From Acidibrevibacterium fodinaquatile (GTDB lineage: Bacteria > Pseudomonadota > Alphaproteobacteria > Acetobacterales > Acetobacteraceae), in assembly GCF_003352165.1 (NCBI RefSeq), contig NZ_CP029176.1, forward strand, positions 2,232,001 through 2,296,000: a stretch of DNA of 64,000 nt, read 5' to 3'. The notes under the pieces are model-generated. The model saw only the letters and a program-made list of their open reading frames with translations. It did not search any database and had not been told where the DNA came from. The position numbers were made by a program, and so were the translations under genes. Positions 50,500 through 57,176 of the stretch are shown one piece after another (position 1 is the stretch's first letter; each line of letters opens with the position of its first letter).

Positions 50500-52473
50500 T
50501 CATCCCTCGGCGAAACCCGAAGCCGCGCCGCCGCGCCGGCCCTCAATCCCATGCCCATGGGCCTCATTGCCGCCTGCCCCCTCCCCGTCGTTCCCAGCGG
50601 GATCGGGCTCACCGGCATTGAGGCGATTTTGCGCCTCGCGCAACGCCAAGACTCGCCGCTCGGCACGTGGGGTCGGGTTCGCCTCGAAATCCCGCTGCGC
50701 TGCGGCCAGTTCCTCACGTAACCGTTCGCGGTGCGAAAACCCGAAAAAATGCCACCACCCCTCTGCCACATCCGCCGGCGGCGCCCCGGGCGCGGCAAAC
50801 ACCGGCGCGCAAGCCCGCACCTCCGCCACCTGCTCACCTAGCCCGCTCTCGGCGAGATGGTCGATGAGAGCAGGAGAGTCAAGCGCCGGATGCGAATTTA
50901 GTCCGGCCGCGGCCGCAACATCGGCTGATTCCGGCGCCGCCATCACCGCGTTGCGCACCCAGGCGAGCAGTGCCTCCCGCAGTCGGCTCAACGGCGCCGG
51001 CAAAGCGAGGCCGCTGAGCGCCTCCTCGACCTCGAGCGCCAGCGCCGGATGATGAAGCAGCACCGCGAGCAGCACCCGCTCGCGCGTCTGATCGCCAGGA
51101 CGGGGTGCGGCGCGGAGCCGCGGCAGCGACGGGAACGCCGCTCTCTCCCCCCGCGATGGTGCGCCGCGCGCCCGCCCTTTGGCGCCGCCCACTGGTGCCG
51201 GCGGGCGGCGGAATTCGGCAAAGAAGCGATCGCGGAGTGCCTGGCGATATTCCCACTGGAGGCTGCGATGGTCGATGCTCTCGGCCGCCGCCATCAAGGC
51301 GTCGAAAAACCCACTCCGGCTCTCAGGCGTTGCGCCGGGGAACTGGGCGCGGGTGAGCGCATAAAGCGCGCTGATCAAGGGTTGGCGGCGGGCCAGTGCT
51401 TCGGCGCGGAAGCCGGCCGCGCCGGCGCGGCCGAGCAGGCTGTCAGGATCCTCGCCCGGCGGCAATGGCACGATCTCAAGGCTGCGCTCGGGAGTGATCA
51501 GCGGCAGCGCGAGCGAGATCGCGCGCAGCGCCGCCCGCGCCCCGGCCTCGTCGCCATCGAAACAGAGAAGCGGCACCGGCGACACCTGCCAGAGAGTTTC
51601 GAGATGCTCGATGCCGAGTGCCGTGCCAAGCGGCGCCAGCGCGCCGGGAAACCCGGCCTGGTCGAGGGCGATGACATCCATATAGCCCTCGACCACCAGG
51701 ATTTCGCCGCCAGCGCGGCTGGCAGCCGCGGCGCGGTCGAGATTGTAGAGCGTGCGGCGCTTGGAAAAGACCGCCGTTTCCGGCCCGTTGAGATATTTCG
51801 GCGCGCTGGTCTGGCTGTCATCGAGGCGCCGACCGCCGAAGCTCACGATCCGCCCACGGCGGTCACCGATCGGGAAGATCAGCCGACCGATGAAGAATTC
51901 GCGCGCCGGCTGGCCGTCTTCAGCCGGGCGGAGAAGGCCGGCCTCGATCATCGCCGCTGGGGTAATCCCCTCACGCGCGAGATCGGCGGTCAATGCCCCG
52001 CGCCCCGGCGCGAAGCCGAGACGAAAGCGCCGAGCCGTCGCCTCGCTCACGCCGCGCCGGGCGAGATAGGCGCGCGCGCCAGCGCCTTCGGGAAGCCACA
52101 AACGACGTTCAAAGCTCTCGGTGGCGCGTTCGAGCACGGCCAGGCTGTCCCGCGCCGCGCGCGCCGCGACGGCTTGATCCGGCCCTTCCTCCGGCACCGC
52201 AAGCCCGGCCTCGGCGGCAAGGCCGCGTACTGCCTCGATGAAGCTCTGTCCCTCGGCCTGCATGACATAGCTGATCGCATCGCCATGGGCGCCGCAGCCA
52301 AAGCAATGGTAATGATCGTCATAGACGTAGAAGGACGGTGTTTTCTCGCCGTGGAACGGGCAGCAGCCCTTCCATTGCCGCCCCGAGCGGGCAAGGCGCA
52401 CCCGCCGCCCGATCAGCGCCGGAAGCGGCGTCGTGGCGCGCAATTCCTCGAGGAAACCGGGTGGTAAAGCCAT
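50500..52473 (-). CDS. dnaG: DNA primase
   Basis: 657 residues from MALPPGFLEELRA. The zinc-binding CHC2 motif is CCPFHGEKTPSFYVYDDHYH followed by CFGCGAHGD. The catalytic Toprim domain has EILVVEGYMDVIALDQAG and LLCFDGDEAGARAALRA. The C-terminal helicase-binding domain is long and poorly conserved. Upstream sequence to 52527 is not needed for the family start. It is divergent from the carA fusion across a 95-bp region that contains two operator-like palindromes. Confidence 0.95.
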   Translation of the reverse strand: MALPPGFLEELRATTPLPALIGRRVRLARSGRQWKGCCPFHGEKTPSFYVYDDHYHCFGCGAHGDAISYVMQAEGQSFIEAVRGLAAEAGLAVPEEGPDQAVAARAARDSLAVLERATESFERRLWLPEGAGARAYLARRGVSEATARRFRLGFAPGRGALTADLAREGITPAAMIEAGLLRPAEDGQPAREFFIGRLIFPIGDRRGRIVSFGGRRLDDSQTSAPKYLNGPETAVFSKRRTLYNLDRAAAASRAGGEILVVEGYMDVIALDQAGFPGALAPLGTALGIEHLETLWQVSPVPLLCFDGDEAGARAALRAISLALPLITPERSLEIVPLPPGEDPDSLLGRAGAAGFRAEALARRQPLISALYALTRAQFPGATPESRSGFFDALMAAAESIDHRSLQWEYRQALRDRFFAEFRRPPAPVGGAKGRARGAPSRGERAAFPSLPRLRAAPRPGDQTRERVLLAVLLHHPALALEVEEALSGLALPAPLSRLREALLAWVRNAVMAAPESADVAAAAGLNSHPALDSPALIDHLAESGLGEQVAEVRACAPVFAAPGAPPADVAEGWWHFFGFSHRERLREELAAAQRDFEANPTPRAERRVLALREAQNRLNAGEPDPAGNDGEGAGGNEAHGHGIEGRRGGAASGFAEG

Positions 52474-52501
52474 TAGCCGAGGCCCTTTCGGCGCGACCCG
52501 C

Positions 52502-52562
52502 TGGGATTTTTTTTCCCAAACTCGCATTTCTCATTGCTATGGGAAATTATTTCCCGCATAAT
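52502..52562 (+). promoter_or_regulatory. Promoter with tandem palindromic operators upstream of the HTH-carA ORF
   Basis: Two matching palindromes: TGGGA-N7-TCCCA at 52502-52518 and TGGGA-N7-TCCC at 52540-52555 (core GGGAAATTATTTCCC), centres 38 bp apart. A candidate promoter spans the second one: TTGCTA at 52534-52539, 17-bp spacer, CATAAT at 52557-52562. The ATG at 52569 starts 7 nt after the -10, where transcription would begin, so the mRNA is probably leaderless. The same region could also influence dnaG. Confidence 0.65.
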
Positions 52563-52568
52563 TTGCCC

Positions 52569-53930
52569 ATGCCCCTCACCGTCGAAGATCTCATCGCCCG
52601 CCTCGGTGGCGCCGACGCCGCCGCCGAGCAGCTCGGCGTCGGCACCGAGGCGCTGCGCAAATGGCGCCAAGCGCGGAGCATTCCGGCACGCCATTGGCCG
52701 GCGTTGCTCGCCGCGACCGGGCTGACCCTCACCGATCTGCCTCGCGCCCCATCCCGGAGTGACCCCATGTCCGCCATCGCTCATCCCCCCGAGGGCGCGA
52801 CCGCAGCGCTCGTGCTCGCCGACGGCACGGTGTTCTGGGGCCGCGGCCTCGGCGCCATGACCGCCAAGGCGCCACCGCTCGGCGAGGTCTGCTTCAATAC
52901 CGGCATGACCGGCTATCAGGAGACCCTCACCGATCCCTCCTATGCCGGCCAGATCATAACCTTCACCTTTCCTCATATCGGCAATGTCGGCGTCAATAGC
53001 GAGGATGTCGAGGCCTCGACGATCGCCGCCCGGGGCCTCGTTCTGCACGCCGACATCACAGCGCCGGCCAATTGGCGGGCAACCGAGGGCCTCGATGAAT
53101 GGCTCGCCCGGCGCGGCGTCACCGGCATGGCTGGCGTCGATACACGGGCGCTGACCCTTCGCATCCGCGACCAGGGGGCGCCCAACGCTGTGCTCGCCTA
53201 CCCGAAAGATGGCCGCTTCGATCTGCCGGCGCTCCGCGCCGCCGCGGCTGCTTGGCCGGGGCTCGAGGGGATGGACCTCGCCGGCACCGTCTCCTGCACC
53301 CAAAGCTACCCTTGGGATGAGACGGTTTGGACGTGGGGCCAAGGCTATGGCCGCCAGACCGCGCCGCGGTTTCATGTCGTCGCGGTCGATTATGGCGCGA
53401 AACGCAACATTCTCCGCGAACTCGCCGCCGCTGGCTGCCGCATTACCGTGGTGCCGGCAACCGCCAGCGCGGACGACATCCTCCGCCATCGCCCGGACGG
53501 CGTCTTTCTCTCGAACGGCCCTGGCGACCCGGCGGCGACGGCGGAATACGCGGTGCCGGCGATCCGCGGCGTGCTCGAAGCCGGGGTGCCGCTCTTTGGG
53601 ATCTGTCTCGGCCATCAGCTCCTCGCCCTCGCCCTCGGCGGGCGCACCTACAAGATGGCGCGCGGCCATCGCGGCGCCAACCAGCCGGTCAAGGATCTCG
53701 CGACCGGGAAGGTCGAGATCACCAGCCAGAATCACGGCTTCGCGGTCGATCCGGCAAGCCTCCCGGAAGGCGTCGTGGTCACCCATACTAGCCTGTTTGA
53801 CGGCTCGAACGAGGGCATCGCGCTCACCGGCAAGCCGGTATTCAGCGTGCAATACCACCCCGAGGCCAGCCCCGGCCCCTCCGATAGCCACCATCTCTTT
53901 GGGCGCTTCGTCGCGCTGATGGAGTCCTGA
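52569..53930 (+). CDS. carA: carbamoyl-phosphate synthase small subunit fused to an N-terminal helix-turn-helix
   Basis: From 52569 a single frame of 453 residues. Residues 1-60 are a YdaS/Cro-like HTH (TVEDLIARLGGADAAAEQLG, VGTEALRKWRQARSIPARHW). Residue 67 onward is ordinary CarA (ALVLADGTVFWGRGLG), with the glutaminase Cys in LFGICLGHQLLALALGG and the His/Glu in VQYHPEASPGPSDSHHLFG. CarA hydrolyses glutamine to feed ammonia to CarB for arginine and pyrimidine synthesis. An internal ATG at 52767 has its own ribosome site (GGAGTG, 5 nt before) and would give a normal 387-residue CarA. Two products are thus possible, one with a DNA-binding head. carB follows 3 bp later. Confidence 0.85.
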   Translation: MPLTVEDLIARLGGADAAAEQLGVGTEALRKWRQARSIPARHWPALLAATGLTLTDLPRAPSRSDPMSAIAHPPEGATAALVLADGTVFWGRGLGAMTAKAPPLGEVCFNTGMTGYQETLTDPSYAGQIITFTFPHIGNVGVNSEDVEASTIAARGLVLHADITAPANWRATEGLDEWLARRGVTGMAGVDTRALTLRIRDQGAPNAVLAYPKDGRFDLPALRAAAAAWPGLEGMDLAGTVSCTQSYPWDETVWTWGQGYGRQTAPRFHVVAVDYGAKRNILRELAAAGCRITVVPATASADDILRHRPDGVFLSNGPGDPAATAEYAVPAIRGVLEAGVPLFGICLGHQLLALALGGRTYKMARGHRGANQPVKDLATGKVEITSQNHGFAVDPASLPEGVVVTHTSLFDGSNEGIALTGKPVFSVQYHPEASPGPSDSHHLFGRFVALMES

Positions 53931-53933
53931 TCA

Positions 53934-56900
53934 ATGCCCAAGCGCACCGATCTTCACTCGATCCTGATCATCGGCGCCGGCCCGATCGTCATCGGCCAGG
54001 CGTGTGAGTTTGACTATTCCGGCGCCCAGGCCTGCAAGGCGCTGCGCGCCGAGGGCTATCGCGTCATCCTGGTCAATTCCAATCCGGCGACGATCATGAC
54101 CGACCCGGAATTGGCCGACGCCACCTATGTCGAGCCGATCACGCCGGAAATCGTCACGAAAATCATCGCCCGCGAGCGCCCGGACGCGTTGCTCCCCACC
54201 ATGGGCGGGCAGACCGCGCTCAATGTCGCGATGCAGCTCGCGAAAACCGGTGTTCTCGATGCCTACGAGGTCGAACTGATCGGCGCCCGCGCCGATGTCA
54301 TCGACCGCGCCGAGGACCGGCTCAAATTCCGCGACGCGATGGCGGCGATCGGCATCGAGAGCCCGCGCAGCGCCATCGCCCACACGATCGACGAAGCCCG
54401 CGCCGCCTTGGCCGAAATCGGCCTGCCCGCCGTCATCCGGCCGAGCTTCACGCTCGGCGGCACCGGCGGCGGCATCGCTTATAATCGCGAGGAGTTCGAC
54501 CAGATCGCGCAAGGCGGCCTCAATGCCTCGCCGGTTTCCGAGGTGCTGATCGAGGAAAGCGTGCTCGGTTGGAAGGAATTCGAGATGGAGGTGGTCCGCG
54601 ATGGCGCGGACAATTGCATCATCGTCTGCGCGATCGAGAATGTCGATCCGATGGGCGTCCATACGGGCGATTCGGTCACCGTCGCGCCGGCGCTGACGCT
54701 GACCGATAAGGAATATCAGCGCATGCGCGATGCCTCGATCGCGTGTCTGCGCGCCATCGGCGTCGATACTGGCGGGTCGAACGTGCAATTCGCGATCGAT
54801 CCGCAAACCGGCCGGATGCTGATCATCGAGATGAACCCGCGCGTCTCGCGCTCCTCCGCGCTCGCCTCCAAGGCGACGGGATTCCCGATCGCGAAAATCG
54901 CCGCCAAGCTTGCCGTCGGCTACACGCTCGATGAGCTCGCGAACGACATCACCCGCACGACGCCGGCGAGCTTCGAGCCGACCATCGATTACGTCGTCGT
55001 CAAGATCCCACGGTTCACGTTCGAGAAATTTCCCGGAACGCCCGCTCTCCTGTCCACCAGCATGAAATCGGTGGGCGAAGCAATGGCGATCGGGCGGAGT
55101 TTCGCCGAGGCGCTGCAAAAGGGTCTGCGCAGTATGGAGACCGGGCTTTCCGGTCTCGATGAAATCACGCCGCCCGGCGATGGCGGGGCGGATGCGTTCC
55201 GCGCCGCGCTCTCAACCCCGCGCCCGGACCGGCTCCTGGTCGCGGCACAGGCGCTCCGCGCTGGACTTACGGTCGAGGACGTTCACGAGGCGTGCAAATT
55301 CGACCCCTGGTTCCTGCGCCAGATCGAAACCATCATCGCCGCCGAGCGGGCGGTGCGCGACAGCGGCCTGCCCGAGAGCGCCATGGCGTTTCGGCGCCTC
55401 AAGGCGCTCGGATTTTCCGATGCGCGTCTAGCCGAACTCACCGGGTGTCGCGAGGCAGATGTCGCCGAACACCGCGCTCGGCTCGGGGTGACGCCGGTCT
55501 ATAAGCGGATCGATACCTGCGCCGGCGAATTCGCCTCCGCGACCCCTTATCTGTATTCGACCTATGAGGGCGGCTTCGGCACGCCGGTTTGCGAGGCAGC
55601 GCCGAGCACGCGGGAAAAAATCATCATCCTCGGCGGCGGCCCGAACCGCATCGGCCAGGGGATCGAGTTCGACTATTGCTGTGTTCATGCCGCTTACGCG
55701 CTGCGTGAGGCGGGGTTTGAGACCATCATGATCAACTGCAATCCCGAAACCGTGAGCACCGATTATGACACCTCCGACCGGCTCTATTTCGAGCCACTCA
55801 CCGCCGAAGACGTGATCGCGCTGGTGCGACGCGAACAGTCGGCAGGGAAACTGCTCGGCTGCATCGTGCAATATGGCGGACAGACGCCGCTGAAACTCTC
55901 ACAGGCGCTCGCGCGCGCCGGCATTCCCATTCTCGGCACCAGCGCCGAGGCGATCGACATTGCCGAGGATCGCGAGCGTTTTCAGAAACTTTTGCAAAGC
56001 CTCGCCCTGCTGCAACCGGAGAATGGCACGGCGCGCTCGGCCCCTGAGGCGGAGGCGATCGCCGAGCGCATCGGCTATCCGGTGGTGATCCGGCCGAGCT
56101 ATGTGCTCGGCGGTCGGGCGATGGAGATCGTCCATGATCGCGCCGGCCTAGCCCGCTATATGCGCGAAGCGGTGCGCGTCTCGGGCAGCAACCCGGTGCT
56201 GATCGATCGCTATCTCGCCGATGCGATCGAGGTCGATGTCGATTGCATTAGTGATGGCGAGACCGTTCATGTTGCAGGCGTCATGGAGCATATCGAGGAG
56301 GCCGGCATCCATTCCGGCGATAGTGCCTGCGCGCTGCCGCCCTATTCGCTGCCGCCGGCGATCGTCACCGAACTCCGCGCCGAGACCGTCGCGCTCGCGC
56401 GAGCGCTGAAAGTGGTCGGATTGATGAATGTGCAATATGCGATCCAGGGCGATGCAATCTACGTCCTCGAGGTCAATCCGCGTGCCGCGCGCACCGTTCC
56501 CTTCGTTGCCAAGGCGACCGGCCTGCCGGTTGCCAAACTCGGCGCCTTGGCGATGGCCGGCATCAAGCTCGATCCCGCTCGTCTGCACGAAAAGGCGCTC
56601 GGCGCCCATGTCGCGGTCAAGGAATCGGTGTTCCCGTTCGCGCGTTTTCCAGATGTCGACGTCATTCTCGGGCCGGAGATGAAATCGACCGGCGAGGTGA
56701 TGGGGCTCGATACCAGTTTCGAGCGCGCCTTCGCCAAGGCGCAGCTCGGCGCTGGGGTCACGCTTCCGGCTGCAGGGACGGTGTTCCTCTCGGTCAAGGA
56801 TGGCGACAAGCAGGCCGTGGTCTCGCTCGGCCGGCGCCTGATCGAGATGGGATTTCGCATTCTGGCGACGCGGGGAACGGCGGCGCGGCTGCGGGACGCC

Positions 56901-57176
56901 GGGCTCGCGGTCGCGGTCGTCAACAAGGTGCTCGAAGGCCGGCCGCATTGCGTCGATGCGATTCGCTCCGGCGAGGTGCAGTTGGTGATCAACACCGCCT
57001 CTGGCGCGCAGTCGGTGCATGACAGTTTTGATATCAGAAGGAGCGCGCTCACCCACGGGGTTCCCCATTACACCACCATCGCCGGCGCCCGCGCCGCCGT
57101 GCACGCGATCGCTGCCCTGCGCGCAGGAGAGCTTGAAGTCGCACCGCTGCAGGGGTATTTTCACGGATCGTTCTGA
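53934..57176 (+). CDS. carB: carbamoyl-phosphate synthase large subunit
   Basis: 1080 residues, the usual length, with two homologous ATP-grasp halves. The first has [40 protein letters not shown] and [13 protein letters not shown]. The second has [40 protein letters not shown] and [14 protein letters not shown]. The C-terminal MGS-like allosteric domain ([20 protein letters not shown]) binds regulators such as UMP. Probably cotranscribed with carA. Confidence 0.98.

Follow-up and report, generated by a model that had tools for sequence, protein, structure and literature searches.

A Cro-like head fused in frame to the carbamoyl-phosphate synthase small subunit of Acetobacteraceae: a probable trigger enzyme acting on its own promoter

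In nearly all sampled genomes of the Acetobacteraceae, the family of the vinegar bacteria, the small subunit of carbamoyl-phosphate synthase (CPSase), CarA, is predicted to carry a Cro-like helix-turn-helix (HTH) head, and a conserved palindrome occupies the predicted promoter of its gene. An enzyme and a domain of DNA-binding type thus stand in one open frame, the arrangement that characterises trigger enzymes, in 275 of the 283 carA-bearing genomes of the family, the polypeptide itself being predicted. We have good, though not full, confidence in the reading that HTH-CarA is a trigger enzyme that binds its own promoter and autorepresses carAB, and that head-bearing and headless forms of it are made. 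In that case, an enzyme subunit standing at the start of pyrimidine and arginine synthesis would probably switch its own gene off.

Results

The head and carA share one open frame

The window (the whole stretch of 64,000 nucleotides of Acidibrevibacterium fodinaquatile DNA analysed here) contains a single open frame of 453 residues that runs from an ATG at 52569 to a TGA ending at 53930, with 66 codons preceding the carA ATG at 52767. As judged from the frame, domain scores, fold and conservation, these 66 codons (52569..52766, forward strand) encode the Cro-like head and linker of HTH-CarA; the head corresponds approximately to residues 1-57, the linker to the next twenty or so, and carA to the remainder. 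The continuity of the HTH reading frame with carA, described in an earlier note on this DNA, was confirmed, as was the note's assignment to carA of an ATG and ribosome site of its own: GGAG at 52756..52759 (forward strand) lies seven bases before ATG 52767, from which a CarA of 387 residues would be read (52767..53930, forward strand). The next gene on the same strand (53934..57176), an open reading frame of 1080 residues, is presumably carB, encoding the large subunit; this name is taken from the family. Two palindromic boxes and a predicted promoter at 52502-52562, described below, lie beyond the region that the note had covered.

The carA portion scored 441.5 bits against TIGR01368 (cut-off 307.35; residues 79-452), and in a full-length structural model (mean pLDDT 79.9) it matched E. 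coli CarA (1cs0_B) with an E value of 3.9e-46; the linker around residues 60-68 was unstructured in this model. E. coli CarA is not known to contain a DNA-binding domain, which fits the approximately 380 residues of its crystal chains that match the HTH-CarA model. C346, H430 and E432, which we take to be the glutaminase triad, were invariant among 27 aligned proteins. One carA was found in the window genome, the three other matches spanning the glutamine-amidotransferase part alone at 32-33% identity. The CarA part may still be an active enzyme; it is encoded by the sole carA found in the genome, and its active-site residues are conserved.

The head belongs to a named family with a Cro-like fold

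The head scored 71.1 bits against NF046037 ('carph-isopro'; cut-off 38), an NCBIfam family whose listing states no function; since the family has an NCBI name, the domain is already known to curators. Scores against Pfam models were below the gathering cut-offs (26.0 vs 30 bits for YdaS_toxin, PF15943, and 23.3 vs 30.2 bits for P22_Cro, PF14549), and from these scores and the predicted structure the head is related in fold to YdaS and P22 Cro. It was predicted with a mean pLDDT of 91.5 as four helices (residues 5-11, 15-22, 26-35 and 40-50). The nearest solved folds identified by Foldseek were the Cro proteins of N15, Xfaso 1 and P22, with E values of 0.004-0.08, TM scores of 0.65-0.72 by query length and identities of 26-30%; no Foldseek match reached E 0.001, and no solved structure reached E 0.05 in a search with the head sequence alone. 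The structure of N15 Cro was solved on operator DNA. Phage Cro repressors stand alone and control phage genes. The third helix (residues 26-35; 52644..52673, forward strand, from the predicted structure and alignment) contains R30, K31, W32 and R33, which were invariant across 29 aligned heads, and by likeness to Cro it would be the recognition helix. Locus L001, a near copy, was omitted from alignment A1, and L001, L024 and L025 were omitted from alignment A2.

A palindrome fills the spacer of the predicted carAB promoter

A scan of positions 52400-52900 predicted one promoter (shuffle mean 0.0), consisting of a -35 hexamer TTGCTA (52534..52539, forward strand) and a -10 hexamer CATAAT (52557..52562, forward strand; also seen in the locus comparison). 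The 17-bp spacer between them is filled by a palindromic box, TGGGAAATTATTTCCCG (52540..52556), which the box survey and the promoter geometry mark as a probable operator. A distal copy, TGGGATTTTTTTTCCCA (52502..52518), has one mismatch to the pattern TGGGAA-N5-TTCCCA. A somewhat shortened form of the pattern, TGGGAANNNNNTTCCC, was found at a single place in the 4.04-Mb window genome, this promoter.

For comparison among relatives, loci whose CarA core was identical over its first 300 nt were counted once, which reduced 178 fused loci to 157 distinct ones. With up to two mismatches allowed, TGGGAA-N5-TTCCCA was present within 160 nt upstream in 149 of these, exactly in 89; in mononucleotide-shuffled upstream sequences it was present in 0.4%, and the exact box in none. 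At least two boxes were found in 122 of the 157 loci (121 with two copies and one with three), and 100 of the 123 spacings between box starts measured 37-40 bp. The distance from the end of the proximal box to the ATG was 12-14 nt in 111 loci and 11-15 nt in 113. Among these 113, TTG directly precedes the box (-6 to -4) in 100 and A occupies position 2 of the -10 hexamer in 97. The promoter consensus reported for Gluconobacter oxydans is ttGnnn / nAtnnn (PMC5756330, accessible part), and the TTG and A flanks accordingly suggest that a promoter of this type has the proximal copy as its 17-bp spacer.

The -10 hexamer ends 6 nt 5' of the head ATG in the window, and from its position transcription would be expected to start approximately at that ATG (52569). 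A leaderless transcript is defined in the accessible part of the G. oxydans transcript-start study as one that starts at most 3 nt from the start codon (PMC5756330); carA is not named in its main text. Should transcription actually begin a few bases into the gene, the predicted promoter would leave the head unread. Boxes lie farther from the ATG in some loci (e.g., L026, L030 and L054), and a leaderless geometry is therefore not universal. The divergent dnaG gene, which starts 95 nt from the head ATG in the window, was considered as a conserved co-target and found unsupported: within the sequence compared, dnaG was found in 64 of 155 loci, where the median gap was approximately 640 nt and the gap exceeded 550 nt in nine in ten.

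The head is the likely binder of the palindrome

Three observations bear on whether the head recognises the box. First, the exact box was present in 75 of 120 family genomes, compared with 9 of 120 for a backwards control pattern; the 45 genomes missing the exact 12-base box include that of the window, where there is one mismatch. Among the matches listed (75 places in 55 genomes), 68 of 75 exact boxes lay at most 220 nt upstream of HTH-carA, and a broad box regulon was rejected on this basis. One genome, G100, contains 11 exact box-like palindromes, nine being TGGGAAGGTGTTTCCCA and two a close variant, which are scattered and absent from its carA contig; they look like a repeated element. Second, in the three genomes whose carA is headless, no box closer than three mismatches was found within 700 nt. 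Third, the end of the recognition helix covaries with the box. The common box is missing from eight loci. Six of them carry CGGAA-N5-TTCCG, five exactly and the other with a single mismatch; a one-mismatch form was seen at L144, and no box was recognisable at L028, whose head is present. Residue 34 is Q in 142 of 143 common-box loci and is not Q in five of the seven variant-box loci (seven ties left out), giving a Fisher p of 2e-7, a statistic that ignores phylogeny. On a weakly supported tree of 150 loci (7 of the 157, with fewer than 250 residues of sequence, were omitted), there were five residue changes and six box changes, of which one independent pair fell on well supported branches. Because of shared descent, the covariation is not independent evidence across loci.

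These observations must also be weighed for the best-surviving alternative, namely that a separate regulator binds the palindrome and that the head of CarA serves elsewhere, for example in assembly with CarB. It would account for the head without a box in L028, and the contact between head and DNA is itself a prediction. The near-confinement of exact boxes to one promoter makes a general regulator unlikely, however, and it also speaks against a separate regulator that box and head are jointly missing in three genomes, that a box base and residue 34 change together in five of seven variant loci, and that the invariant block of the 29 aligned heads is the putative recognition helix. We consider this alternative unlikely. 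From the near-confinement of boxes to carA, their co-loss with the head and the residue-box covariation, the head is the likely binder of the palindrome, and a conserved palindrome in the gene's own promoter indirectly supports the proposal that the enzyme acts on DNA.

Two start codons may yield two protein forms

An internal ATG is present in 121 of the 157 loci, and 100 of these 121 have at least four matching ribosome-site bases (best ATG per locus); as many matching bases were seen at 37 of 156 head starts and at 93 of the 563 ATGs within carA. The scarcity of ribosome sites at head starts fits a transcript that begins near the head ATG. In the remaining 36 loci the internal ATG is missing, and in 17 of these the linker contains neither GTG nor TTG, so that the fusion there must be the enzyme itself. 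The suggestion in the earlier note that the cell may make both a plain CarA and an HTH-CarA therefore fits the window and most relatives and does not extend to those 17 loci. Automated annotation may place the start of carA at the internal ATG and so hide the head.

The frequency of the internal ribosome site would also suit a head that is a relic of an old upstream regulator gene, a tolerated N-terminal tail, the work being left to plain CarA translated from the internal start, as would the three genomes of 1.7-2.1 Mb in which carA has no head. Against such a relic, in ten genus pairs the head has dN values of 0.04-0.12 vs dS values of 0.26-0.48, by which it is evolving under purifying selection; its invariant residues are shared by all 29 aligned heads, and 17 loci have no internal start. 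A relic thus appears very improbable, and the reading of HTH-CarA as a probable autorepressor is preferred.

The fusion is conserved across the family

In a whole-protein search of 299 family genomes, 283 gave a carA match at E 1e-60; G024, one of the 16 without such a match, gave no carA match at 1e-15 either. In 275 of the 283 genomes, head and carA were fused in one frame; three had no head (G034, G144 and G236), one had head and carA in differing frames (G116, locus L035), and four were cut by contig ends (G031, G064, G173 and G205). The first listing covered 149 genomes in 150 rows, all of which started at query residue 7 or earlier in one open frame; G028 (locus L027), absent from this listing, was fused when its DNA was read. 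The remaining 133 genomes were searched again in two sets of 79 and 54 matching genomes. In the former, 71 were fused, as seen from one low-starting row (60), from two pieces in the same frame (7) or by reading the DNA (4; G067, G082, G094 and G098); in the latter, all 54 were fused. Two fused genomes have later interruptions: a TAG lies within the carA body of G062, downstream of the head-carA junction, and a frameshift farther along carA in G309. The plain carA genes at L039 and L040 (G034 and G144) and L043 (G236), which lack both head and box, fall in two genera, and separate losses are thus possible. When a head profile was compared with 385 genomes of the class, E values below 1e-20 occurred in this family alone (five genomes there), the next best being 3e-10.

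A stop between the HTH and carA in close relatives, which the earlier note had named as evidence against a fusion, was found at the junction in none of the 275 fused genomes; in G116 the frames differ. The note's own alternative, that the HTH is a small regulator in its own right that has lost its stop codon, for which the differing frames of G116 might speak, is ruled out, whether the loss be peculiar to this strain or a sequencing error, for the family by the in-frame fusion in 275 of 283 genomes and can practically be dismissed. Chance read-through in a GC-rich genome was likewise ruled out by this count, together with the purifying selection on the head and its confident four-helix prediction.

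Related heads precede other alphaproteobacterial enzymes

At E 0.001, heads matching NF046037, or weaker relatives of it, precede other proteins in 42 of 142 genomes of the class; 26 are over the cut-off. Acetylglutamate kinase (ArgB) is HTH-headed in L220 (G356) and L222 (G415), and is fused in all four genomes of one family (L225-L228). The ATP phosphoribosyltransferase regulatory subunit (HisZ) is HTH-headed in L218 (G418) and L223 (G346), and is fused in all four genomes of its own family (L229-L232). Further heads occur on SerA (L214, G359), crotonyl-CoA carboxylase/reductase (Ccr; L209, G428) and GlmU (L191, G051), the last named by eye. The heads of HisZ L218, SerA and Ccr score over the NF046037 cut-off, and those of ArgB L220 and L222 and HisZ L223 score below it.

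Among 13 upstream sequences, four (HisZ L232 and L223, ArgB L222 and GlmU L191) had an inverted repeat that was reached by at most 11 of 200 shuffles, compared with 5 of 200 for L002, a carA control of the window type. The same shuffle test found no outstanding inverted repeat upstream of ArgB L225-L228, HisZ L229-L231, SerA L214 or Ccr L209. The sequence upstream of HisZ L232 contains a perfect inverted repeat, TGTCCTG-TTTT-CAGGACA. Many further matches (L195, L201, L202, L204 and others) share the head motif FGGIRPMA-KL---VTTVQGWK; the two of these that were scanned, L195 and L201, are mitofilin-like membrane proteins, distinct from the enzyme fusions. L224 (G332) encodes a chaperone resembling TorD and the nitrate reductase delta subunit, with an N-terminal YdaS domain over the Pfam cut-off.

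It is conceivable, at somewhat below an even chance in our estimation, that Alphaproteobacteria have repeatedly acquired Cro-like heads as a general device by which pathway-controlling enzymes (CarA in Acetobacteraceae; ArgB, HisZ, SerA, GlmU and Ccr elsewhere) repress their own genes. Each would then act through a separate operator, and an internal start would fix how much regulator is made relative to plain enzyme.

Discussion

The mechanism that we infer would link DNA binding, repression, leaderless translation, two protein forms and coupling to the oligomeric state of the enzyme. The heads would bind in pairs to the palindromes of the carAB promoter, and HTH-CarA, alone or within CPSase, would occupy the boxes and block transcription; because the proximal palindrome forms the spacer between the -35 and -10 hexamers, head binding would exclude RNA polymerase. 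The head would be translated from a nearly leaderless mRNA, and the linker start with its ribosome site would, in the window and most relatives, yield plain CarA too, setting the ratio of head-bearing to headless protein. The oligomeric state of CPSase may in turn bring the heads together or hold them apart, and in this way tie repression to the supply of nucleotides and arginine. The UMP/ornithine link is drawn from E. coli enzymology: in that species, UMP-bound CPSase is a single heterodimer, and ornithine promotes a tetramer (PMC6245113, accessible part). Were the enzyme here to behave likewise, plentiful ornithine would bring the heads into pairs and tighten repression; the sign of this effect is a guess, and it could be the opposite if free HTH-CarA is the repressor.

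Proteins that combine these roles are known. PutA binds the region before its own gene and represses that gene (PMC8249747, accessible part). Like HTH-CarA as proposed here, PutA and other trigger enzymes (BirA, NadR, PepA and PyrH) are each one protein serving as enzyme and regulator. PutA is nevertheless a different enzyme, from a catabolic pathway, and its DNA-binding domain has a fold other than the Cro-like one; HTH-CarA is biosynthetic, has a Cro-like head, and has an internal start that allows a headless form. In E. coli, carAB is controlled by PepA, PyrH, ArgR, PurR, RutR and IHF, some of which are trigger enzymes (PMC6245113, accessible part); the same operon is controlled in both cases, and the regulators described there are proteins other than CarA. 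We found no description in the openly licensed literature of a DNA-binding CarA or of the name 'carph-isopro', nor of HTH heads on ArgB or HisZ. Trigger enzymes and the NF046037 domain are thus known, and the candidate DNA-binding head on CarA appears to be new as far as that literature shows.

The locus offers a ready test case, with operator, promoter and DNA-binding head proposed to the base, and natural variants are available in the loci that combine a changed box with a changed residue 34 and in the three genomes without head and box. If the proposal is true, a central enzyme of these bacteria senses its own pathway and sets its own transcription without a separate regulator. If the heads of ArgB, HisZ, GlmU, SerA and Ccr work alike, this would amount to a modular principle of control.
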